A stretch of 64,000 nt of DNA from Nitrospirota bacterium (GTDB lineage Bacteria; Nitrospirota; Thermodesulfovibrionia; Thermodesulfovibrionales; UBA6898), in NCBI GenBank assembly GCA_016214855.1, contig JACRMT010000007.1, forward strand, positions 62,001 through 126,000. The letters run 5' to 3'. The notes below the pieces were generated by a model. The model had not been told where the DNA came from, did not search any database, and was given only the letters and a program-made list of their open reading frames with translations. Below are positions 35,881-58,877 of this stretch, piece by piece. Position 1 is the stretch's first letter; every line of letters begins with the position of its first letter. The position numbers were made by a program, and so were the translations under genes.

Positions 35881-37287
35881 TTGATGAAACCGAACTATCC
35901 ACGAATAATCGTTGCAGGCATGAAGGGCGGGGCTGGCAAGACAACAGTCAGCCTGGGCATTATCGCTGCATGGGAAAAGCAGGGCCTGTCAATCGTTCCC
36001 TTTAAAAAGGGGCCTGATTATATCGATGCCGGCTGGCTGTCGTCAGCTGCAGAATATGCCTGTTTCAACCTTGACCCGTTTCTGATAACAAAGGAAAAGA
36101 TCCTCTCGTCCTTTGTCAGTCATTACGGTGATGCTGATTGCGCTGTTATCGAGGGGAACAGGGGCCTGTATGACGGCATGGACGCAGCAGGGACGTACAG
36201 CACTGCAGAGCTTGCAAAGACCCTGCAGGCGCCGGTGATCCTGGTGCTCGACTGCACCAAGGTGACACGGACAGCAGCAGCAATGCTCCTTGGCATGCTG
36301 AAGTTCGATCCAAAGGTGAAGATCAGCGGCGTGGTTCTGAACCAGATCGCAGGCAAACGGCATGAGAAGGTGATCAGGGAAGCGATCGCCAAATACTGTA
36401 AGGTGCCGGTTGTGGGTGCGATACCGAAACTGCGGGGCGAGCAGCTCTCTGAGCGGCATATGGGCCTTACGCCGTTCCAGGAGCATCCAGAGGTCAAAAA
36501 GGCCATTGCCGCCTGCGCTGATATTGCGGAGAAATACCTTGATCTTGATGCGATACGGAAAATAGCGAATAAAGCAGGGGTTAGGGATTGGGGATTAGGG
36601 ATCGGAAATACTCATCACTCATCACCCATTACCCATCACGGCTTGCGTATCGGCATTATCCGTGACTCTGCTTTCCAGTTCTACTACCCTGAGAATTTTG
36701 AGGAGCTTCAGAAGCGCGGGGCAGAGCTTGTCGAGATCAGTGCGCTCAGGGCAAAGAAACTGCCTGATGTAGATGCGCTTTATATTGGCGGAGGTTTTCC
36801 TGAAACGCATGCTATTGCTCTTGCGAAGAATAAGAACTTCAGGAATGCGCTGAAGGCGGCGGTTGAACAGGGGCTGCCGGTCTATGCCGAATGCGGCGGC
36901 CTGATGTATCTTGGCGAAGCACTGGTGCTGGATCGTAAGACCTATCCCATGGCAGGGATCTTCCCTCTCAGGTTCAGTCTCGAAAAAAAGCCCCAGGCAC
37001 ATGGTTACACCATAGTAAGGGTGGCGAAGGCCAATCCTTTTTATAAGAGAGGGACCCTGATCAGGGGACACGAGTTCCATTACTCCCGCGTGATCAGCCC
37101 TGTGAAGCAAAGTAACCTGCAGTTTGCATTCAGCATGGAGCGCGGTGAGGGTATTCTGGATGGCAAGGACGGCATCTGTTATAAGAATGTACTGGCAACC
37201 TATACACACCTGCATGCTCTGGGCTGTCCTGAATGGGCAGAGGGAATGATACAACAGGCAGTTGCATACCAAAAAGGCAGGAAATAG
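35881..37287 (+). CDS. dsrN: DsrN-type cobyrinate a,c-diamide synthase homologue (putative siroheme amidase)
   Basis: 468 residues of the CobB/CbiA family: an N-terminal dethiobiotin-synthetase-like ATPase with P-loop KGGAGKTT near residue 14, then a class I glutamine amidotransferase domain with the nucleophile in YAECGGLMYLG near 338 and HLHALG near the end. A second CbiA (57468-58877) sits in the cobalamin operon. This copy heads the dsr cluster and is therefore probably DsrN, proposed to amidate siroheme for dissimilatory sulfite reductase. A 63-bp in-frame heptamer insertion (36577-36639) lies between the domains. Confidence 0.8.
   Translation: MMKPNYPRIIVAGMKGGAGKTTVSLGIIAAWEKQGLSIVPFKKGPDYIDAGWLSSAAEYACFNLDPFLITKEKILSSFVSHYGDADCAVIEGNRGLYDGMDAAGTYSTAELAKTLQAPVILVLDCTKVTRTAAAMLLGMLKFDPKVKISGVVLNQIAGKRHEKVIREAIAKYCKVPVVGAIPKLRGEQLSERHMGLTPFQEHPEVKKAIAACADIAEKYLDLDAIRKIANKAGVRDWGLGIGNTHHSSPITHHGLRIGIIRDSAFQFYYPENFEELQKRGAELVEISALRAKKLPDVDALYIGGGFPETHAIALAKNKNFRNALKAAVEQGLPVYAECGGLMYLGEALVLDRKTYPMAGIFPLRFSLEKKPQAHGYTIVRVAKANPFYKRGTLIRGHEFHYSRVISPVKQSNLQFAFSMERGEGILDGKDGICYKNVLATYTHLHALGCPEWAEGMIQQAVAYQKGRK
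36577..36639 (+). repeat. In-frame heptamer repeat inside dsrN (9 x 7 nt)
   Basis: Nine consecutive 7-nt units: four of the GGGATTG/GGGATTA type, one transition unit, and four of the TCATCAC/CCATCAC type. The total, 63 nt, is 21 codons, so the frame is kept. It encodes a Gly-rich then His/Ser/Thr/Pro-rich loop between the two domains. Confidence 0.85.
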
Positions 37288-37941
37288 ATGCAGAAATCAG
37301 AGATCAGGGAATGCCTGGGGCAGTATCAGCTCCAGCCGATAATAGAAGCAGCGCAGAAGAACCGAAGTGTGATCAGAATGCTCATATCCCTTGTTTATGA
37401 CAAGGAGAACCTCGAGAGCTGGCGGGCCATAGAAGCGATCGGGCTTGTTGCGGGCGAGATCGCAAAGACGAACGTTGACGTTGTCAGAAACCTGAGCCAG
37501 AGATTCCTCTGGATGATGCGGGATGAGTCAGGGAACGGTCCTGGAAGCGCGCCCGAGCTCTTAGGAGAGATCGTAAGAAGCACGCCTGATGCCTTTGCTG
37601 ACATCGGACAGGTTGTTACATCTTTTCATGATGAGAAGATGCTCAGGAGCGGCGTTATGCGTGCGATCTGGAGGATTGCTGACAGACGGCCCGGCCTGTT
37701 GACCATAACGCAGGAACTTATGGACCAGAAGCTCTATCTTGAGGACGATGACCCCCAGGTGAGGGCCTATGCCCTGATGACAGCAGCGGCACTGGGGCTG
37801 AAAGAGTTTCAGCCGCTTGTAGAGGGGCGTTTGGGCGATATGAGCCCTGTAACTATATATAATAAAGGAGAGTTTATGAATACAACGCTGTCCGAGATCG
37901 CAAAAAATGCTGCTGCCGGACTCCAGGGCAGGGAGAACTGA
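37288..37941 (+). CDS. HEAT-like helical repeat protein linked to dsr
   Basis: 217 residues, all-helical, with repeated pairs (ESWRAIEAIGLVAGEIAK, DDPQVRAYALMTAAALG) typical of HEAT/PBS-lyase repeats. No catalytic motif. It starts the base after the dsrN stop, so it is co-transcribed. Similar proteins are, from memory, carried by sulfate reducers (a DVU0298-like group), but no function is known. Likely a binding scaffold. Confidence 0.65.
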   Translation: MQKSEIRECLGQYQLQPIIEAAQKNRSVIRMLISLVYDKENLESWRAIEAIGLVAGEIAKTNVDVVRNLSQRFLWMMRDESGNGPGSAPELLGEIVRSTPDAFADIGQVVTSFHDEKMLRSGVMRAIWRIADRRPGLLTITQELMDQKLYLEDDDPQVRAYALMTAAALGLKEFQPLVEGRLGDMSPVTIYNKGEFMNTTLSEIAKNAAAGLQGREN

Positions 37942-37946
37942 TAATA

Positions 37947-38303
37947 ATGAATGCAGGCAGAAGAGACAGTAATCCTATTCTGGGCTGCCCATTCTGTGAG
38001 CGGCCGCTTAAAGAGCTTGAGGAGATCACAACCAGGTTCGGGAATGTGATCAGCGGGGGGAGATGCGAATGCGGCTCAGCCTATGTTTATGACGGCTCAG
38101 GCCATAATATAGGCGATGCCTATGTTGATGCCCTGACCCTTCTCTGCAACGGGGATCTGGACAAGGCATGGGCCATGACACCCGAAGAAGACTATGAGGT
38201 GAAAGAGTTTAACTATGATTCAAGGAAGAATCGGTTCAGCTCGGAATCGCTCGGCAGGGGCAAACGTTCTCCGGTCTATCTCTTCGTAAAACTGAAAAAA
38301 TGA
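37947..38303 (+). CDS. Zinc-ribbon-like protein of unknown function
   Basis: 118 residues. The N-terminal part has CPFC (near 14) and CECG (near 41), a probable four-cysteine zinc site. The central region has the conserved-looking GDAYVDALTLLCNGDLDKAW, followed by a charged tail. It follows the HEAT-like gene by 5 bp in the dsrN unit. Not a family I can name; the constant company of dsr genes here suggests an accessory role in sulfite reduction or siroheme handling. Confidence 0.55.
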   Translation: MNAGRRDSNPILGCPFCERPLKELEEITTRFGNVISGGRCECGSAYVYDGSGHNIGDAYVDALTLLCNGDLDKAWAMTPEEDYEVKEFNYDSRKNRFSSESLGRGKRSPVYLFVKLKK

Positions 38304-38553: not shown

Positions 38554-38889
38554 ATGGCAACAATGGATTTTCAGGGTAAGTCAATCGAGGTAGATGATGA
38601 TGGATATCTTCTGAACCTTGATGATTGGACAAAGGAGCTTGCAGATGTTCTTGCAAGCCAGGACGGAGTTACTCTCTCTCCTGCGCACTGGGAAGTTATC
38701 AATTTCCTGCGCGATTACTACAAACAGTATCAGATAGCCCCGATGATCAAGATCCTCGTTAAGGAGATCGGCAAGGCTATGGGTCCTGAAAAAGGCAACA
38801 CCAAGTATCTGTATGAGCTCTATCCGGGCGGTCCTGCAAAGCAGGCATGTAAGTATGCAGGGCTTCCGAAGCCTACAGGCTGCGTATAG
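38554..38889 (+). CDS. dsrC: DsrC sulfur carrier protein
   Basis: 111 residues of the DsrC/TusE family. Both redox cysteines are present, Cys110 (second to last residue) and Cys99, eleven positions apart, in KQACKYAGLPKPTGCV. That pair separates true DsrC from TusE-like homologues. DsrC takes the trisulfide from sulfite reductase and passes electrons and sulfur to DsrMKJOP, encoded just downstream. Own leader and own terminator, so it can be expressed at high level independently. Confidence 0.96.
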   Translation: MATMDFQGKSIEVDDDGYLLNLDDWTKELADVLASQDGVTLSPAHWEVINFLRDYYKQYQIAPMIKILVKEIGKAMGPEKGNTKYLYELYPGGPAKQACKYAGLPKPTGCV

Positions 38890-39036: not shown

Positions 39037-39600
39037 ATGAGACTGAAGCATATCCTTTCAGAAAAAAAAGACGTTATTCTTGCCTCGTGGTTCGACCGCA
39101 TTCTCGACACCTATCCTGCCGAGACTGCCAGGTTCCTTAAGAACCAGAAGGACAGATTTGCCAATCCGGTAGGTCAGACCATCCATGAGGGGATAGAGGG
39201 TATTTTTCAGGAGCTTGTCCAGGGCGGCGAGGTCGAAAAGGTCTCAGGGTTCCTTGATGCCATGATCAGAGTAAGGGCGATCCAGGAATTTACTGCGGCC
39301 CAGGCAGTGGCATTCATCTTCTTTCTCAAGAGCATTATCAGGGAGGGGATCAAAGATATCCCCCTTACGTCAGAACTTGCCGAAGAACTCGCAGCCCTCG
39401 AATCACAGATCGATTCCCTTGTCCTTATCGCCTTTGATATCTTCATGCAGTGCCGCGAAAAGCTCTACGACATCAAGGCGAACGAGATGAGGAACATGAC
39501 CTACCGGCTCCTCCAGCAGGCGAATCTGGTCACCGAGGTCGAGGGGGCGAAGCAGGAAACCATGTTCATTTCAATACCAAAGAAAGAGGTAAACACATGA
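39037..39600 (+). CDS. RsbRD N-terminal-domain protein ahead of dsrM
   Basis: 187 residues, mostly helical, resembling the RsbRD N-terminal (globin-like, PF14361) domain: ILSEKKDVILASWFDRILDTYP at 6-27 (shown split: ILSEKKDVI, LASWFDRILDTYP) and VRAIQEFTAAQAVAFIF near 80. No STAS domain. A gene of this type commonly precedes dsrMKJOP in sulfate reducers, where it may be regulatory. Coupled to dsrM by a 4-bp overlap (ATGA). Confidence 0.8.
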   Translation: MRLKHILSEKKDVILASWFDRILDTYPAETARFLKNQKDRFANPVGQTIHEGIEGIFQELVQGGEVEKVSGFLDAMIRVRAIQEFTAAQAVAFIFFLKSIIREGIKDIPLTSELAEELAALESQIDSLVLIAFDIFMQCREKLYDIKANEMRNMTYRLLQQANLVTEVEGAKQETMFISIPKKEVNT

Positions 39601-40589
39601 AAGTTGTATTGCCCTTCATTGCAGTTGTGGGACTCGCGCTGCTTGCATTGGTCGGGGTGACAGTGGCACATCAGGTGGAATTCTTCTTCGGGGTCATAGT
39701 TCCCTATGCAGCGGTTGCGGTCTTCATTTTCGGGTTCATGTACCGCGTTCTGCAGTGGGCGAAGTCACCGGTGCCATTCTGTATTCCGACTACCTGCGGG
39801 CAGCAAAAGACGCTTCCGTGGATCAAACATGACAAACTTGAGAACCCTGTGACGACCCTGCAGGTTGTCGGCAGGATGCTTCTTGAAGTGCTTGTCTTCC
39901 GTTCTCTCTTCAGGAACCTGAAGACAGAGATGAAGGATGGCAAGATCGTTTACGGTTCCGAGAAATTGCTCTGGCTCGCAGGCCTGGCATTTCACTGGAC
40001 ATTCTTTTTTATTTTTGCAAGGCACTTCCGCTTCTTTTTTCAGGATGTGCCGACGCTCCTCAGAATGATGGAAGGAGTGGACAGCTTTTTCCAGGTTGGA
40101 GCCCCGCTCTTCTATATGACTGATGCCGTGATCCTCGGTGCAGTGACGTTCCTCATCTTCCGGAGGGTCTATCTGCCGCAGATCAGGTACATTTCCCTTG
40201 CATCTGATTTTTTCCCGCTCTTCCTTATTCTCGGCATTGCGCTGTCAGGCATTCTTATGAGATATATCTTTAAAGTGCATATTGTCGCCGTGAAGCAGTT
40301 TGCCATGGGCCTGGTCAGCCTGAGTCCGGTCATACCTCAGGGGATAGGAGCCATATTCTATGTACATCTCTTTCTGATCTGTACGCTTCTGATCTATTTC
40401 CCGTTCAGCAAGCTGATGCATATGGGAGGGGTATTCCTGAGCCCGACAAGGAATATGGCGAATGACAGCAGAATGGTCCGGCATATCAACCCCTGGAACT
40501 ATCCCGTCCATGTCCATACGTATGAAGAATATGAAGACGACTTCAGGGAGAAGATGAAGAAGGCCGGGCTGCCGGTCGAAAAGGAGTAG
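39597..40589 (+). CDS. dsrM: DsrM, membrane cytochrome b subunit
   Basis: 330 residues from the ATG at 39597; the frame is open to 39450 but that part is antisense-free shadow of the preceding gene. A NarI-type heme b membrane protein with about six TM helices and conserved histidines (LAGLAFHWTFFFIFARHF; YVHLFLICTLLIYFPFSK). It exchanges quinol electrons and passes them to DsrK. Short cytoplasmic tail. Confidence 0.94.
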   Translation: MKVVLPFIAVVGLALLALVGVTVAHQVEFFFGVIVPYAAVAVFIFGFMYRVLQWAKSPVPFCIPTTCGQQKTLPWIKHDKLENPVTTLQVVGRMLLEVLVFRSLFRNLKTEMKDGKIVYGSEKLLWLAGLAFHWTFFFIFARHFRFFFQDVPTLLRMMEGVDSFFQVGAPLFYMTDAVILGAVTFLIFRRVYLPQIRYISLASDFFPLFLILGIALSGILMRYIFKVHIVAVKQFAMGLVSLSPVIPQGIGAIFYVHLFLICTLLIYFPFSKLMHMGGVFLSPTRNMANDSRMVRHINPWNYPVHVHTYEEYEDDFREKMKKAGLPVEKE

Positions 40590-40591
40590 TC

Positions 40592-42205
40592 ATGGCAAAA
40601 CTTCCAACACCAGAAGAACTCTTAAAGATTCATTACAACCCTCCCCAGGATGAAAACTGGATGGATAAGCCGGCAGAGCTGAAGCAGGGCAATATCTGCT
40701 GGGGAGCAAAAGGAAAGAACCTCAAGATCGTTGAATTCCCCAATGCGCGTGACTGGTCTCCTGTTGAGGAGGACTGGAAGCTGCCGCAGGACTGGGAAGG
40801 AACGGTCCTTGAGGCAATGGCTGACAGACTTTCCAAATACCGTTCGTTCAAGATATTCATGGACATATGCGTCAGGTGCGGGGCCTGCGCAGACAAGTGT
40901 CATTTTTTTATCGGCGGCGGCGATCCCAAGAATATGCCTGTTCTGAGAGCCGAGCTGATGCGGTCTGTGTACAGAAAGTATTTTACGAACTCGGGCAAGT
41001 ACCTCGGCAAACTGGCTGGCGCCCGTGAGCTTGACCTTGGTGTTCTGAAGGAGTGGTGGTACTACTTCTATCAGTGCACAGAGTGCAGGCGCTGCTCGGT
41101 CTTCTGCCCGTACGGCATAGACACGGCCGAGATCACGATGATGGCAAGGGAATTCACCAATCTCCTCGGCCTGAACACGGACTGGATATCCGGACCGGTC
41201 GCAAATTGCTACATGAAGGGCAACCACCTCGGCCTTGAGCCGCATGCCATCATGAACAGCGTTGAAGGCATGGTCGACGACATCGAGACCATCACCGGCA
41301 TCAGGATCAATCCTTCGTTCAACAGAAAGGGCGCAGAGATCCTTTTTGTGACCCCGTCGGGTGATCTCTTCGCAGACCCCGGCACATTCACTGCCATGGG
41401 ATATATGATGCTCTTCCACGAATTAGGGCTTGATTACACCTGGTCAACCTATGCATCCGAAGGCGGCAATTTCGGTTTGTTCACTTCGAACGAAATGGCC
41501 AAGAGGCTGAACTCGAAGATCTACGCCGAGGCCAAAAGGCTTGGCGTGAAATATATCATCGGCGGAGAATGCGGCCATATGTGGAGGGTCCTGAACCAGT
41601 ACATGGATACCTGGAACGGGCCGGCTGACTTTATGGAAGTGCCGAAGTCCCCTATCACCGGGACGGTCTTTGATAACGCTGCCTCGACCAAGATGATCCA
41701 TGTCACCGAGTTTACGGCTGACCTTATCAAGAACGGCAAACTGAAACTTGATCCGACCCGAAACGACGATCTTGTTGTAACGTACCATGACTCCTGCAAT
41801 ACGGCCAGGGGTATGGGTCTTCTTGAGGAGCCGCGCTATATCATTAACAACGTATGCAACAAGTTCCATGAGATGCCTGATAATACGATCAGGGAGCGGA
41901 CATTCTGCTGCGGCAGCGGAACCGGCCTGAATGCCAGCGAGAATATGGAGCTGAGGATGCGCGGCGGCCTGCCAAGGGCGAATGCCGTGAAGCATGTTAC
42001 CGAAAAATATGGTGTGAATACGCTTGCAAATATCTGCGCCATTGACCGGGCAACGCTCTCTGCTTCCATGGACTACTGGGTCCCGGGAACACGGGTTGCC
42101 GGTGTGCATGAGCTTGTGGCGAATGCCATGATCATGACAGGAGAGAAGGAGAGGGAGACGAACCTGCGCGGCGAACCGCTCCCCGGGAAGGGAGGTAACG
42201 AATAA
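40592..42205 (+). CDS. dsrK: DsrK, HdrD-like iron-sulfur subunit
   Basis: 537 residues. Ferredoxin motifs CVRCGACADKCHF and CTECRRCSVFCPYG are followed by two CCG-type domains, with EFTADLI, HDSCNTARGMG and the ERTFCCGSGTGLN cysteines that bind the noncubane [4Fe-4S] centre of HdrB/D-type enzymes. Predicted to reduce the DsrC trisulfide in the cytoplasm. Stop overlaps the dsrJ start (TAATG). Confidence 0.95.
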   Translation: MAKLPTPEELLKIHYNPPQDENWMDKPAELKQGNICWGAKGKNLKIVEFPNARDWSPVEEDWKLPQDWEGTVLEAMADRLSKYRSFKIFMDICVRCGACADKCHFFIGGGDPKNMPVLRAELMRSVYRKYFTNSGKYLGKLAGARELDLGVLKEWWYYFYQCTECRRCSVFCPYGIDTAEITMMAREFTNLLGLNTDWISGPVANCYMKGNHLGLEPHAIMNSVEGMVDDIETITGIRINPSFNRKGAEILFVTPSGDLFADPGTFTAMGYMMLFHELGLDYTWSTYASEGGNFGLFTSNEMAKRLNSKIYAEAKRLGVKYIIGGECGHMWRVLNQYMDTWNGPADFMEVPKSPITGTVFDNAASTKMIHVTEFTADLIKNGKLKLDPTRNDDLVVTYHDSCNTARGMGLLEEPRYIINNVCNKFHEMPDNTIRERTFCCGSGTGLNASENMELRMRGGLPRANAVKHVTEKYGVNTLANICAIDRATLSASMDYWVPGTRVAGVHELVANAMIMTGEKERETNLRGEPLPGKGGNE

Positions 42206-42606
42206 TGTACAATTCCGGAAAGATCATAGCAGGGCTTGCAGTCTTCTTTATCCTGGCTGCATTACCGTTCCTGCTGAACCTCGGAAAGGCAAACGCGAAG
42301 ATCGAACCGAGCATTAACACGCCGGAGATAAACGCCATGCCGGTGAAGCAGTGCGTAGAGAGCAAGGAGTTCATGAGGGCAGAGCATATGCAGCTTCTGA
42401 ACGACTGGCGGGACGAGGTCGTCCGCAACGGCAACCGGATCTATACCAGCAGGTCTAACGGTAAACAGTATGCCATCAGTCTCCAGAATACCTGCATGAA
42501 ATGTCACTCGAACAAAAAAGAGTTCTGCGACAAGTGTCATAACTACATGGCCGTGAAACCCTATTGCTGGAGCTGCCATATCGCACCGAAGGAGGAAAAG
42601 TCATGA
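42205..42606 (+). CDS. dsrJ: DsrJ, periplasmic triheme cytochrome c
   Basis: 133 residues with an uncleaved N-terminal hydrophobic segment (about 7-25) and three CxxCH sites at residues 97-101, 108-112 and 121-125. Cys50 in PVKQCVESKEFM could be the unusual His/Cys heme ligand described for DsrJ. It transfers electrons on the periplasmic side with DsrO. Confidence 0.94.
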   Translation: MYNSGKIIAGLAVFFILAALPFLLNLGKANAKIEPSINTPEINAMPVKQCVESKEFMRAEHMQLLNDWRDEVVRNGNRIYTSRSNGKQYAISLQNTCMKCHSNKKEFCDKCHNYMAVKPYCWSCHIAPKEEKS

Positions 42607-43412
42607 GCATAAACAGGAGACAGTTCCTGAAATTAGCAAGTGTTTCCACGATCCTTGGTGTCGGCAGTGCTGCGGCAATTACGAGCATCAGCAGGAGCGG
42701 TCTTGAGGCGTCACAGTCCTCACCTGACCCGAAGGGTCTCAAGGCAAAGCGTTGGGGATTTGTGGTCGATGTCAGCAAGCTCAAAACAGAAGAGGATTAT
42801 CAGAAGTGTATTGACGCCTGCCATAACATCCACAATGTTCCGACACTCAAAAATCCGAAGCATGAGATCAAATGGATATGGAAGGATGACTATGAGCATA
42901 CCTTCCCCAATATGGCAGAGGACAAGATCATGAACAAGGAACTGCAGGAGAAGAATTTTCTGCTCTTCTGCAACCATTGCGCTAACCCTGCCTGCGTCCG
43001 GGTCTGTCCGACCCAGGCGACCTTCAAGCGCAAGTCTGACGGCATCGTTATGCAGGATATGCATCGCTGCATCGGCTGCAGGTTCTGCATGGCAGCCTGC
43101 CCGTTCGGCGCCAGAAGCTTCAATTATGTTGACCCGAGGAAGGACAATGCCATCAAGGTCGAGAACAAGGAATTCCCGACCCGCATGATCGGTGTTGTCG
43201 AAAAATGCACTGCCTGCTATGAACGGCTTGCAGTCGGCAAGCAGCCTGCCTGCGCCGAGGCGTCTGACGGCGCGATCGTGTTCGGTGATCTTGAAGATCC
43301 GAAGTCTGAGGTCAGAAGGCTGATCGCGGAGAAATACACGATCCGGCGCAAGCCTGAGCTCGGAACACAGCCGGGCATTTACTATGTGATTGGAGGTGGC
43401 GAGCATGTTTGA
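42603..43412 (+). CDS. dsrO: DsrO, periplasmic ferredoxin-like subunit with Tat signal
   Basis: 269 residues from the ATG at 42603 (ATGA overlap with dsrJ). Twin-arginine signal [10 protein letters not shown] at the start, then four cysteine clusters of the NrfC/DmsB type, e.g. [31 protein letters not shown] and [11 protein letters not shown]. Couples DsrJ to DsrP. It overlaps dsrP by 8 bp. Confidence 0.95.
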
Positions 43413-44571
43413 AAGGGCCCTTAGCGGCAGCAACAGATACTGGGCATGGATATTCTTCCTTCTTGCAGTGATAGGCGTCGGCTTTTTAGCGTACATGAAA
43501 CAGCTCAACGAAGGTCTTGGCATTACCGGACTGAGCAGGGATGTTTCCTGGGGTTTCTATATTGCCCAGTTTACGTTCCTTGTCGGCGTGGCAGCATCAG
43601 CGGTCATGCTTGTTATACCTTACTATCTGCATAATTTCAAAAAGTTCGGCAAGATCGTGATCCTTGGTGAGTTCCTTGCCGTTTCTGCGGTAACCATGTG
43701 CATGCTCTTCATCCTGGTCGACATGGGTCAGCCGATGAGGGTCCTGAACGTTGTTCTGCATCCAACGCTGAACTCGGTCATGTTCTGGGATGCGCTCGTG
43801 CTGAACGGGTACCTCTTCCTGAACATTATCATCGGCTGGACAACACTGGCTGCTGACCAGAAACAGGTGGCTCCGCCCCAGTGGGTCAAGCCGCTGATCT
43901 ATCTTTCGATCCCCTGGGCAGTCAGTATTCATACGGTAACGGCGTTTCTCTATGCAGGTCTTCCCGGCAGGCACCTCTGGCTTACCGCTATCATGGCAGC
44001 CAGGTTCCTTGCCTCAGCTTTTGCAGGCGGACCTGCAATCCTTGTGCTTCTTGCCCTTCTGGTGAGGAAGTTCAGCAAGTTTGATCCTGGACAGGAGGCC
44101 ATCCAGGCACTGGCCAAGATCGTTACGTATGCAATGTGTGCGAATGTCTTTTTCTTCCTGCTTGAGGTGTTTACGGCCTTCTATAGCGGTATCCCGGGCC
44201 ATGCGCATCCGCTTGTTTATCTCTTTGCCGGACTTGACGGCCATACCAAGCTTGTGCCCTGGATGTGGACCGCTGCAGTGCTTGCCTTTGCCAGCATAGC
44301 ACTTCTCGTAAACCCGTCCACCCGCCAGAACGAAGGGACATTGAAGCTCGCGCTTGTGGGGGTTATTATCGCTGCATGGATAGACAAGGGCATGGGTCTT
44401 GTTATCGGCGGCTTTGTGCCGAACCCTTTCGAGCGGGTGACGGAATATGCGCCGACCATGCCTGAGCTTGCGATCACCTTTGGCGTTTATGCTGTTGGAT
44501 TATTGGTCCTGACGCTGCTCTATAAGGTTGCGATAGGGGTCAGGGAAGAAAATGGTGCGGTTGAGCACTGA
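43405..44571 (+). CDS. dsrP: DsrP, NrfD-like membrane quinone-interacting subunit
   Basis: 388 residues from the ATG at 43405 (GGAGG 9 nt upstream). About ten TM helices of the NrfD/PsrC family with no cofactor-binding histidine pattern. Characteristic [19 protein letters not shown] near 30 and [20 protein letters not shown] near 190. Exchanges electrons between DsrO and the quinone pool. Last gene of dsrMKJOP; no terminator is evident after it. Confidence 0.94.
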
Positions 44572-44912: not shown

Positions 44913-44942
44913 TTGACCCAATTTGCTGCTAACTGGTATAAA
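44913..44942 (+). promoter_or_regulatory. Promoter of the tusB-dsrE-dsrF-tusA genes
   Basis: TTGACC (44913-44918) and TATAAA (44937-44942) with 18-bp spacing, followed after about 37 nt by the tusB start with AAGGAGG. This makes the sulfur-carrier genes a separate unit. Confidence 0.7.
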
Positions 44943-44978
44943 ACAGAACTTTTCACAACCCTATTAAGGAGGTTCCTA

Positions 44979-45275
44979 ATGAAATTAGCTGTACTCATGA
45001 GCGACTACAGGACAGGATCCGACATCATAGACAGGCTCAGTGCTGAAAAGCTCGGCATCATCCTTGTCGGCAATGGTGTTTATCATGCTGCAGCAAAAGA
45101 AGACGGCAAGGCATGTGCCATCCTTGACAAGAAGGCTGAATTCTTTGCCTTGACCGAGGACTTCGAGAGCAGAGGTTTTACTGCGGACAAGCTCGACAGC
45201 CGCGTAAAGGCTGTCAACTACAGCGATGTGGTTGATCTTATCTTTAACGATTACGAAAAAGTAATCTGGTTATAG
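44979..45275 (+). CDS. TusB/DsrH-like sulfurtransferase subunit
   Basis: 98 residues from the ATG at 44979 (AAGGAGG upstream; the longer open frame is spurious). A small alpha/beta DsrE-fold protein beginning MKLAVLMSDYRTGSD and ending KVIWL. DsrH binds with DsrE and DsrF to form a hexamer for sulfur transfer. One cysteine (GKACAIL), not in the DsrE active-site position. Confidence 0.72.
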   Translation: MKLAVLMSDYRTGSDIIDRLSAEKLGIILVGNGVYHAAAKEDGKACAILDKKAEFFALTEDFESRGFTADKLDSRVKAVNYSDVVDLIFNDYEKVIWL

Positions 45276-45284
45276 GAGGGTACT

Positions 45285-45647
45285 ATGGGTAAATTGACAA
45301 TCGGCACATTTTCATCACTGGTAGGCTCAATGTCACTTGATTTTGCCGTAAAGCTTGCAGAAGCTGCCGTGAAAAAAGGACATAACGTTGATTTCTGGAT
45401 GTCCGGTAATGCTACCATGCTTGCGAAAAAAGGACAGAAGGCCTTTAAAGATTATTCTTTTCTCTCAAAGACCCTTCAGGAAATGTTAGCAACCGGTAAT
45501 TTCAATATCACGGCATGCGAAGCCTGCGCAGAGGCAAGGGGCTACCATAAGGAAGACTGCCCTGAGGGGTTCCAGCGGAAGAGTATGGACTGGTATCTTG
45601 CGAGCACCTTTGAAGCAGATAGAGTCCTGCATATAGGAGGAGACTAA
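45285..45647 (+). CDS. dsrE: DsrE/TusD-like sulfurtransferase
   Basis: 120 residues of the DsrE/DsrF fold. ITACEACAEARG carries Cys78 and Cys81, matching the position of the active-site cysteine of DsrE, with Cys92 nearby. Such proteins accept persulfide sulfur and pass it to DsrC. Located 9 bp after the tusB-like gene; the next gene starts 1 bp after its stop. Confidence 0.8.
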   Translation: MGKLTIGTFSSLVGSMSLDFAVKLAEAAVKKGHNVDFWMSGNATMLAKKGQKAFKDYSFLSKTLQEMLATGNFNITACEACAEARGYHKEDCPEGFQRKSMDWYLASTFEADRVLHIGGD

Positions 45648-45648
45648 T

Positions 45649-46062
45649 ATGGCGACCAGGAAACTTGCATTTGTTGTCCGTTCACTTCCCTATAAAACAG
45701 AGGCATCACGGCTTGCTCTGACCCATGCGATCTCAAGTCAGACCGTCGAGATCTACCTTAATGACGGAGACCTTGTCGAGGCCTCTATTTCCTATGTCGG
45801 TGACGGCGTATTCAACGTTATGAAGAACCAGCAGGCCGGCAAGCATTATGGCATCACAACGAACGAGGGACATGCGAAGAATACCCTTCTTCTTGATCTG
45901 AAGGTCCTTATCTGCAAGGAAGATCTTGACAAGTTCGGCCTTACCGAGGAGAACCTGGTCATGGATGCCGATGATCTCGGTGGTGATATGAAAGCGAACA
46001 TTGTATCCTATAGTGAAATACAGAAGGAGATGGAGACGGCTGATCATCTCCTCTTCTGCTAA
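45649..46062 (+). CDS. DsrF/TusC-like protein
   Basis: 137 residues, DsrE/F fold, starting MATRKLAFVVRSLPYKTEASR. Contains SSQTVEIYLNDGDLVEASISYVG (residues 29-51, cited here as SSQTVEIYLND then GDLVEAS) and ends in cysteine (HLLFC). It fits the DsrF/TusC role of partner subunit. Assignment between DsrF and a further DsrE paralogue is uncertain. Confidence 0.7.
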   Translation: MATRKLAFVVRSLPYKTEASRLALTHAISSQTVEIYLNDGDLVEASISYVGDGVFNVMKNQQAGKHYGITTNEGHAKNTLLLDLKVLICKEDLDKFGLTEENLVMDADDLGGDMKANIVSYSEIQKEMETADHLLFC

Positions 46063-46079
46063 ATTAAGGAGGAAGAAAA

Positions 46080-46325
46080 ATGGCAGATTTAAAAGCACAG
46101 ACACCGACACAGGTTTTGGATGTATTGGGCCGCGTATGCCCTTATCCCCTTGTTCTTACCAAGAAGGCACTTGAAAAGCTTCCCAACGGCGGCATTCTCA
46201 AGATCCTTTGCGATGCCCCTGCATCAGCCGAGGATTCGCTCCCGAGATTTGCAGAGAGCAAGGGAATGGCTTTTGAAGTTGTGAAGACCGGTGAAAGCTG
46301 GGATATCTATATCCAGAAGCCCTAA
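46080..46325 (+). CDS. tusA: TusA family sulfur carrier
   Basis: 81 residues with the signature RVCPYPLVLTKKAL, Cys20 being the persulfide-carrying residue. TusA relays sulfur to the TusBCD/DsrEFH complex, encoded directly upstream, and then to TusE/DsrC. Good ribosome site (AAGGAGG) 17-18 bp after dsrF. It is the last gene before the terminator at 46343. Confidence 0.93.
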   Translation: MADLKAQTPTQVLDVLGRVCPYPLVLTKKALEKLPNGGILKILCDAPASAEDSLPRFAESKGMAFEVVKTGESWDIYIQKP

Positions 46326-57467: not shown

Positions 57468-58877
57468 TTACCTTTTATCCTTGCAGGAATTGATAAACGC
57501 CTTTGGTATAGTCGGATTGCTTCCGAAGTGGAGATGAATATAACTGGCAAGGGTCTTTTTATAAGAATACCCTTCTGCCGGAAGTGTATCCCCCGAGCCG
57601 TTCTTCACGAAATAAGCCCGTGCCACACCCTGATCCTGACCTTCCATAATCTCAGAATAGTGGAATTCATGCCCCCTGGCAACAGTAGTGCTGCCCCCGA
57701 GGATGCATTCATTGATCAGGGCTGTCTCACGATATCCAAGACGCGACCTGCCTTTTTTCATTGCAGTCTCAAAGGGGAAAACTCCGGACATCTCATATCT
57801 GTCGGTTTCGGATTTCCAGATTCCTTTTGACAGATACATCAGTCCGCCGCATTCTGCATACATCGCGCCGTCTGATTCTGCAAAATCCCTGACTGACCCG
57901 AGCATGGATCTGTTTTGGGAAAGCTGCTCAGCATGGAGTTCAGGATACCCTCCGCCGATATAGATACCGCCAATATCAGCAGGCAACTGTGCGTCCTCCA
58001 GAGGGCTGAAAAAGATCAGCTCTGCACCCGCCTCTCTCAGAAGATCAAGATTGTCCTCGTAATAAAAGCAGAAGGCCCTGTCACGGGCAACTGCAATACG
58101 ACACGTGGGGGGCACGTCGCATGGAGCAGAGAATTGATCCTTGCTATCCCTTATCCCTGATCCTTGATGCCTCATGCTCGATCCGCTCTTCATGATGCAA
58201 TCGATATCAATGTGCTGAATAACCGTATCCGCAAGTCTTTCGAGATTTTCCCGAGCAATAGGTTCATCCTCCGCAGTTGTCAGCCCCAGATGCCTGTGCG
58301 GTATCTCAAAGTTCAGGTCTCTTGGCAGATAGCCCATCACCGGCATATCCGTAATACTTTCCTTAAGCCGCTTATAATGATTTTCCGATGCTACCCGGTT
58401 AAAGACGACACCGGCGAAATTAAGGGACAACTCCACCTTCCCCATCCCCTCTTTGCCAAGGAGGGGAGAGAGGGGAGGTCTAAAATCTCTTATACCTTTT
58501 ACAATCGCTCCTGCAGTTTCTGCCATGCCATACGCATCAACAACGAGGACAACAGGAAGACCGAGGCAGCCGGCAAGCGCGGCAGTACTCAAGCTGCCGT
58601 CATACAGACCCATCACCCCTTCGACCACTGCAATATCTGAATCACGCAGATGTCTTCTGAAACAGTTCTGCACAAAGTCTTCTCCGCACATCCAGAGGTC
58701 GAGGTTTCTCGAACGCCTTCCGGTCACAAGCCCATGAAGACCGGTATCGATAAAGTCAGGCCCTGACTTGAACGGCTGGACGCGAAGTCCTTTCTTCCGA
58801 AACGCAGCCATAAGACCGAGCGTTATGGTTGTCTTGCCGCAACCGCTATGTGTACCTGCCACTACGATGCCTGACAT
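57468..58877 (-). CDS. cbiA: Cobyrinic acid a,c-diamide synthase CbiA
   Basis: 469 residues: P-loop GTHSGCGKTTITLG near 8, glutamine amidotransferase nucleophile in MYAECGGLMYLSKG, and YIHLHFGSNP near the end. Amidates the a and c side chains. This is the cobalamin-operon copy; the other CbiA homologue is dsrN. Two repeat-derived insertions are in frame: palindromic element (58431-58482; PPLSPLLGKEGMGKV) and a heptamer run (58135-58183; SSMRHQGSGIRDSKD). Confidence 0.94.
   Translation of the reverse strand: MSGIVVAGTHSGCGKTTITLGLMAAFRKKGLRVQPFKSGPDFIDTGLHGLVTGRRSRNLDLWMCGEDFVQNCFRRHLRDSDIAVVEGVMGLYDGSLSTAALAGCLGLPVVLVVDAYGMAETAGAIVKGIRDFRPPLSPLLGKEGMGKVELSLNFAGVVFNRVASENHYKRLKESITDMPVMGYLPRDLNFEIPHRHLGLTTAEDEPIARENLERLADTVIQHIDIDCIMKSGSSMRHQGSGIRDSKDQFSAPCDVPPTCRIAVARDRAFCFYYEDNLDLLREAGAELIFFSPLEDAQLPADIGGIYIGGGYPELHAEQLSQNRSMLGSVRDFAESDGAMYAECGGLMYLSKGIWKSETDRYEMSGVFPFETAMKKGRSRLGYRETALINECILGGSTTVARGHEFHYSEIMEGQDQGVARAYFVKNGSGDTLPAEGYSYKKTLASYIHLHFGSNPTIPKAFINSCKDKR
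58135..58183 (-). repeat. In-frame heptamer repeat in cbiA (7 x 7 nt)
   Basis: Seven units of the TGATCCT/CCTGATC type, 49 nt, between the two domains of CbiA, the same place as in dsrN. Confidence 0.75.
58431..58482 (-). repeat. Palindromic GC-rich element translated within cbiA
   Basis: Core CCCCTCTTTGCCAAGGAGGGG (21 nt, split as CCCCTCTTTG and CCAAGGAGGGG), related to the element beside tRNA-Phe. It adds about 17 residues to a CbiA loop. Confidence 0.75.

Follow-up and report, generated by a model that had tools for sequence, protein, structure and literature searches.

A HEAT-repeat protein and a four-cysteine protein encoded between dsrN and dsrC form a conserved, often fused pair linked to dissimilatory sulfite reductase

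The stretch of DNA analyzed here, 64,000 nucleotides from a Nitrospirota bacterium (hereafter the window), carries part of a dsr cluster. The dsrN gene (35881-37287, + strand) encodes a CbiA/CobB-like siroheme amidase and ends in a TAG stop. The ATG of the gene directly downstream begins at base 37288, the first base past that stop, and its 217 aa product (37288-37941, +) is a HEAT-repeat protein of the DVU0298 family (NF045662). According to the ORF coordinates, the next gene starts 5 bases past the HEAT gene and before dsrC; it encodes a 118 aa protein (37947-38303, +; hereafter ZnR) that has four invariant cysteines (CPFC...GGRCECG in the window, CPFC ... CxCG in general) and an alpha/beta part, and that belongs to no named family. 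After a 250-base gap 3' of ZnR lies dsrC (38554-38889, +; TIGR03342 with 159.7 bits, PF04358). The cluster continues with genes at 39597-44571 (+) that, from their order and content, we take to encode the dsrMKJOP membrane complex. Between these and dsrC, a gene for an RsbRD_N-domain protein (39037-39600, +; PF14361) was named dsrT by its position and from excerpts of PMC5812927. A previous sequence-only reading had placed a HEAT-like protein directly after dsrN and a four-cysteine protein next, before dsrC, and the coordinates confirm this arrangement. The tight spacing suggests that both genes are co-transcribed with dsrN. A promoter and terminator scan found the surroundings of these genes to be about as rich in signals as shuffled sequence, and an Rfam search of window positions 30000-64000 returned one tRNA and no match near dsrC.

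The top-scoring NCBIfam models for the gene at 35881 are general CobB/CbiA ones. Its assignment as dsrN is supported because all 58 dsrN-labelled genes in the loci we fetched (56 distinct) score higher against this copy than against the CbiA gene at 57468-58877; the latter, a second CbiA/CobB gene on the minus strand, lies in a cobalamin cluster and is distinct from dsrN. In the same genome, dsrA and dsrB are on another contig, adjoining a dsrD-like gene and a gene read as siroheme synthase. Past the 3' end of dsrP (44925-46322), the window also holds TusB/DsrH-, TusD/DsrE- and TusC/DsrF-like genes, all scoring below cut-off, and a TusA/YedF-like gene; a novel DsrEFH has been reported in sulfate reducers (PMC13293266, in excerpt).

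By score, the window HEAT protein is a member of NF045662 (139.4 bits, with the cut-off at 75; residues 6-209 on profile positions 2-212), a family that is named and has no stated function. The earlier statement that neither protein has an assigned function thus holds for both as far as function goes, but the HEAT protein does have a family name. In Pfam, HEAT_2 fell below its cut-off (20.7 against 27.7 bits) and PF03130 (PBS lyase HEAT-like) gave no match at E<=1; a sequence search of the PDB returned one chance-level match (E 0.4). The fold was modelled on a fused homologue, L119 (365 aa, 37-row alignment; pLDDT 89.2, pTM 0.62), rather than on the window copy. Residues 156-364 of this model are almost all helix and match HEAT and armadillo proteins at up to Z 16, among them the HEAT protein CAND1 (Z 16.0 over 203 residues, rmsd 4.3), a match that speaks to fold class only because solenoids match each other readily. 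The window HEAT protein is accordingly predicted, from the model of its homologue and at the level of fold class, to be an alpha-solenoid. The pTM of 0.62 leaves the packing of the two domains of the fused protein unfixed. All six fused or TPR-bearing proteins that were scanned have HEAT halves that are NF045662 members by score. In a broad 39-row alignment of fused proteins, one Gly and one Ile are the only invariant positions of the HEAT half, and conservation stays below 90% for every His, Cys, Met and Tyr; in a narrower 37-row alignment of Desulfobacterota-Firmicutes sequences, without Nitrospirota rows, two Tyr attain that level. The HEAT half therefore appears to have few conserved polar positions and nothing resembling an active site.

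The four cysteines of ZnR are invariant in all 47 rows of a 47-row alignment, and the CPFC/CxCG pattern is present in 110 of 111 ZnR rows (107 distinct); the sole exception, L090, still has four cysteines in two pairs. These cysteines probably bind zinc or another metal at a putative structural site. ZnR had no NCBIfam match at E<=1 and reached no Pfam or NCBIfam cut-off, the best Pfam family being Lar_restr_allev at a sub-threshold 13.8 bits (cut-off 28.6, E 0.071). Against the PDB, the sequence gave one chance-level match (E 0.99), and the profile gave three weak matches, of which the best was a zinc finger (E 0.013). A model of the window protein (40 rows; pLDDT 78.1, pTM 0.71) has strands around the cysteine pairs, then two helices and further strands. 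With this model at pLDDT 78.1, a fold search of the PDB returned a best Foldseek E of 0.34 and a best Z of 3.7, and because nothing rose above Z 3.7 we neither claim nor exclude a fold family.

Four invariant cysteines could also belong to a regulator, in which the ZnR thiolates would sense redox state, sulfide or a metal and the HEAT protein would dock on a partner, so as to tune dsr expression or DsrAB activity. Small regulators are already present in dsr clusters: DsrD is an allosteric activator and DsrT is thought to be regulatory (excerpts of PMC13047784). However, no DNA-binding domain was matched in the HEAT protein or ZnR in Pfam or NCBIfam, and the TPR proteins and TPR parts found with the pair (see below) suggest scaffolding, so that a regulatory role seems to us somewhat unlikely.

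Nitrospirota relatives repeat the order dsrA-dsrB-dsrD-dsrN-HEAT-ZnR-dsrC-dsrT-dsrMKJOP. Because a few regions were fetched twice, distinct counts are given beside raw counts. Where HEAT and ZnR are split genes in Nitrospirota, they lie side by side at this same place; of the 15 dsrN-to-HEAT gaps (14 distinct), 14 fall within -38 to +52 bases, and of the 14 HEAT-to-ZnR gaps (13 distinct), 13 fall within -7 to +75 bases. Since the order and the small gaps recur in relatives, the dsrN-HEAT-ZnR arrangement is not due to chance. For Nitrospirae and T. yellowstonii (Nbg-4 480008/480005; THEYE_A0001/A0003), excerpts of PMC5812927 tabulate locus tags of dsrN and dsrC that are separated by unnamed tags, and excerpts of PMC6018796 point out four functionally uncharacterized genes with conserved synteny in the dsr clusters of Acidobacteriota.

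ZnR lies directly 5' of dsrC in 46 loci (42 distinct), with a gap of 21 to 280 bases. This position would suit a relay in which the ZnR thiols pass sulfur or electrons to or from DsrC, and at one locus (L072) the HEAT gene is found beside DsrE2 and TusA. But that HEAT gene has no adjoining ZnR, the near-universal CPFC/CxCG pattern resembles a structural metal site, and a locus with canonical dsrEFH (L193) comes from a genome without the pair. A relay function is decidedly unlikely on this evidence.

The ZnR alignment was used to scan one genome each of 84,980 species, which yielded 284 loci; the best 80 were kept. Among these 80, 47 have a single ORF in which ZnR precedes HEAT and whose product usually measures some 360-380 aa; 9 have split, adjacent genes, one (L104) has the two genes 5.8 kb apart and 23 have no HEAT gene in the stretch examined. 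At least one other dsr gene lies within the stretch examined in 68 of the 80. Among the best 80 loci, the ZnR-HEAT fusion is typical of Desulfobacterota and Firmicutes, with named strains in Desulfofundulus, Desulfovirgula, Desulfocucumis, Desulfotomaculum and Moorella, and in these phyla the fused gene lies near dsrABD, with dsrN at a varying distance. ZnR-HEAT proteins also occur within Nitrospirota (L027, L028, L030 and others), and three Nitrospirota genomes encode the opposite order, HEAT-ZnR (L005/L053, L022/L063 and L029/L084). The existence of two fusion orders calls for either a rearrangement or two or more joining events.

In a tree of 84 HEAT domains (out of 97 rows, the rest being near-copies), the window copy clusters with L052, where the pair is split, and L053, where it is fused as HEAT-ZnR, with support of 95. 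Thirteen of the 16 HEAT copies that stand alone fall apart from split and fused ones, and three fall among the Nitrospirota rows. A single HEAT-ZnR clade was rejected on the HEAT tree (AU p 0.0008) and not on the ZnR tree (p 0.083), where too few columns are available to decide such tests. A single ZnR-HEAT clade was rejected on neither the HEAT tree (AU p 0.148) nor the ZnR tree (p 0.446). The HEAT tree draws two origins for the ZnR-HEAT order, but as a single origin was not rejected we do not claim them.

Co-occurrence was profiled in 545 genomes from three phyla: 198 Nitrospirota, 198 on the Desulfobacterota side (centered on an uncultured Desulfobacterium, L133) and 149 on the Bacillota side (centered on Desulfofundulus, L119). 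ZnR was sought with the 47-row profile in the latter two phyla and with one protein in Nitrospirota, so the Nitrospirota ZnR count may be low. When the genomes were pooled, dsrA was present in 123 of the 129 with ZnR and 172 of the 180 with HEAT. Profiling against dsrAB had been proposed by the sequence-only reading, and the distribution that it named as refuting its idea, mainly among genomes lacking dsrAB, was not found. Conversely, of 212 dsrA genomes, HEAT was found in 172 and ZnR in 123, leaving 40 without HEAT over the cut-off and 89 without ZnR.

Within Nitrospirota, ZnR was found in 77 genomes and HEAT over the cut-off in 79 (98 at E<=0.001, the extras being weak), and dsrA was over the cut-off in 84 with three more judged split or fragmentary (G046, G052 and G136). 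dsrA accompanied ZnR in 73 of 77 genomes and HEAT in 76 of 79. All four ZnR exceptions (G064, G068, G076 and G182) have other dsr genes on the contig that carries ZnR (L058, L215-L217); two of the three HEAT exceptions are among them, and on the contig of the third (G084, L220) no dsr gene is seen. On the Desulfobacterota side, ZnR was found in 48 genomes (46 with dsrA), HEAT in 87 (82 with dsrA) and dsrA in 99; in the short stretches that were read, no dsr gene accompanied the two exceptions for ZnR (G287, G323) or the other three for HEAT (G302, G358, G408). On the Bacillota side, ZnR was found in 4 genomes, HEAT over the cut-off in 14 (15 at E<=1e-12) and dsrA in 26; all 4 ZnR genomes and all 15 HEAT genomes were among the 26, of which only 4 thus have ZnR. 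For 50 of the best-80 scan loci the underlying genomes were checked, and 48 of the 50 had dsrA over the cut-off, the exceptions being those of L154 and L166. We place weight on these counts and not on Fisher p values because Fisher tests treat related genomes as independent. HEAT and ZnR occur in dsr genomes and hardly elsewhere, and their link to Dsr is well supported; the pair is dsr-bound yet not universal in dsr genomes.

Two functionally unrelated genes could be kept together through operon inertia, as passengers of the cluster. The genes can be unlinked (L072, L104 and L059), and some dsr genomes lack them; however, passengers would not be expected to fuse in both orders or to be nearly restricted to dsr genomes in three phyla, which makes this explanation highly improbable. 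From the fusions in both orders, the shared position and the shared near-restriction to dsr genomes, we conclude that HEAT and ZnR very likely form one functional unit tied to Dsr.

This unit is not indispensable for every Dsr, since 40 of the 212 dsrA genomes lack HEAT and 89 lack ZnR. Six Nitrospirota dsrA genomes (198 sampled) lack both. Loci of three of them (G006, G012 and G016) contain a protein of the NF009410 family, which we take to be DsrL; these three were read out of five such genomes, the other two being G025 and G038. In G012, canonical dsrE, dsrF and dsrH additionally score above cut-off. By their marker genes the three loci appear to be oxidative-type, in a sample that lies outside the sulfur-oxidizing phyla. 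DsrL is no proof of direction, because it has been found together with DsrD in Acidobacteriota (PMC8528874, in excerpt). G142 (97% complete; L082) is of the reductive type, with dsrD and dsrN present and HEAT and ZnR absent. Among 17 Desulfobacterota-side dsrA genomes without HEAT, at least 13 have dsrD next to dsrA within the portion examined; one of the 13, G435, has ZnR and HEAT fragments below cut-off. The absence of HEAT is therefore not simply a sign of oxidation. We considered whether a missing pair generally signals oxidative-type Dsr; by their markers, the three Nitrospirota loci read are consistent with this, but the 13 of 17 genomes with dsrD led us to reject it.

In four HEAT-less Desulfobacterota-side genomes (L175, L182, L183 and L190), a carbon-nitrogen hydrolase-like gene lies 3' of dsrN, and before dsrC where the contig reaches dsrC; the two that were run, L175 and L190, match PF00795.

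The sequence-only reading had suggested that the two proteins are chaperones or delivery factors for the insertion of siro(heme)amide into sulfite reductase. The pairing of the genes (through the fusions) and their link to Dsr stand, and a helper or chaperone remains the leading idea, but siroheme-amide delivery in particular fared less well. PBS-lyase-type HEAT proteins handle tetrapyrroles, and those of the CpcE/F type handle bilins. By analogy, HEAT-ZnR might take the cofactor from DsrN and hand it to apo-DsrAB, for which one could cite the near-zero spacing of dsrN and HEAT in split-type Nitrospirota, the sub-threshold matches of one homologue (L137) to PBS-lyase HEAT and NblB, and the two near-invariant tyrosines of the narrower alignment. 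Yet no such residue reaches 90% in the broad alignment, the window HEAT protein lacks a PF03130 match, and the fused gene of Desulfobacterota and Firmicutes keeps near dsrABD while its distance from dsrN varies. The idea is further weakened because dsrN occurs without the pair, both in L192 and L193, Nitrospirota loci whose markers are of the oxidative type, and in reductive-type loci such as L082 and L175-L178. We regard siroheme-amide delivery as unlikely. DsrN and siroheme amide are themselves known from a sulfur oxidizer (PMC10504309, in excerpt).

Several copies lie outside the usual setting. In L059, ZnR is found outside the dsr cluster, between argJ and def-fmt genes (Pfam), and L060, judged by comparable gene lengths, appears to share this setting, except that a gene on the opposite strand intervenes. 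In L072 (6791-11336), the HEAT gene, which has no ZnR partner, is flanked by a multiheme cytochrome gene on one side and the DsrE2/TusA genes on the other. In seven loci (L070, L077, L078, L124, L150, L161 and L168), the dsrA side of the dsr cluster carries a further HEAT gene that lacks an accompanying ZnR; the same stretch contains a ZnR-HEAT fusion in six of them, L077 being the one without. In nine Desulfobacterota-side stretches (L206-L214), a stand-alone HEAT gene was found apart from dsr, so that the DVU0298 family includes members with no visible positional link to dsr.

Other genes recur near the fused gene. Where dsrD is visible in a fused-type locus, a TPR protein of about 208 aa is encoded 24-266 bases past it in 31 of 33 cases. 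In six other loci a TPR gene abuts ZnR-HEAT (L115, L117, L128 and L137), ZnR (L080) or HEAT (L081), and L117, L128 and L137 encode three-part ZnR-HEAT-TPR proteins of 553-599 aa. A CxxCxxCC protein (PF03692; ~216 aa) is encoded nearby in 28 of 47 fused-type loci. The TPR and PF03692 genes 3' of dsrABD (within L113-L170, such as L131, L133 and L142) mostly point toward ZnR-HEAT. On the 5' side of ZnR-HEAT, 21 loci encode a small zinc ribbon of the FmdB type (PF09723) and 20 loci a 92-aa protein without a Pfam family, as in L136, L141 and about 20 loci in all.

Repeat scaffolds are typical of assembly factors. Because the pair combines a repeat scaffold with an apparently structural metal site, has a TPR companion and shows no enzyme-like residues, we favor an assembly factor over a regulator, cofactor delivery or a thiol relay. 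Our tentative reading, which we hold with a little less than even confidence, is that HEAT and ZnR serve as an assembly or maturation scaffold, or accessory, of reductive-type Dsr. The alpha-solenoid HEAT protein and the small four-cysteine ZnR would act together, presumably as a physical complex in the window organism. The HEAT arch may hold a Dsr client, either DsrAB or DsrC (the product of the gene after ZnR), and ZnR, its four thiolates locked on a metal, could provide a second contact. In a bolder form that we consider doubtful, HEAT and ZnR, together with the TPR protein past dsrD in many lineages, would be machinery devoted to assembling reductive-type DsrAB and loading its cofactor, and lineages without them would use a replacement.

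Dissimilatory sulfite reductase is a major driver of the anaerobic sulfur cycle. In a literature search covering titles and the starts of abstracts, we found no named factor that assembles the coupled siroheme and iron-sulfur cofactor of DsrAB, and a dedicated assembly and cofactor-loading machine, if real, would fill a step for which the literature searched describes no factor. The search, outside whose scope lay supplements and most subscription papers, likewise returned no description of the HEAT/ZnR pair, its fusion, or any HEAT or zinc-ribbon protein encoded in a dsr cluster; queries for "HEAT repeat" with dsrAB and sulfite reductase, and for "PBS lyase" with sulfate-reducing and dsr, returned none. 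In one paper, the DVU0298 tag appears within a table of CO dehydrogenase genes. A conserved, dsr-bound pair that is naturally fused in both orders is a concrete candidate for a Dsr helper, and the fused form is present in cultured hosts (Desulfofundulus, Desulfotomaculum and Moorella). The pair may also serve as an additional, only partial, marker of reductive Dsr.

The two proteins can be compared with several known systems. The window HEAT protein belongs by score to the DVU0298 family, but whereas Desulfobacterota-side stand-alone copies lie apart from dsr in the nine stretches read, the window copy lies in a dsr operon beside ZnR. ZnR resembles small zinc-ribbon proteins of the Lar and LysW type in its N-terminal pairs of cysteines, with sub-threshold matches; it differs in scoring far below their cut-offs, in a second pair that is mostly C-x-C and in a conserved alpha/beta part without a clear PDB match. 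The HEAT protein probably shares a HEAT-type alpha-solenoid with the PBS-lyase HEAT proteins (CpcE/F and NblB), and L137 has sub-threshold matches to PF03130 (18.9 against 20.9 bits) and NblB (E 0.012), unlike the window protein, which has none to PF03130; any likeness in role to the handling of bilins by these lyases is our assumption. Like the reductive Dsr accessories DsrD and DsrT, HEAT and ZnR lie in the dsr cluster, are dsr-tied and have no enzyme signature. Unlike them, HEAT and ZnR form a two-part system, have no family match in common with DsrD or DsrT and are absent from 40 to 89 of the 212 dsrA genomes.
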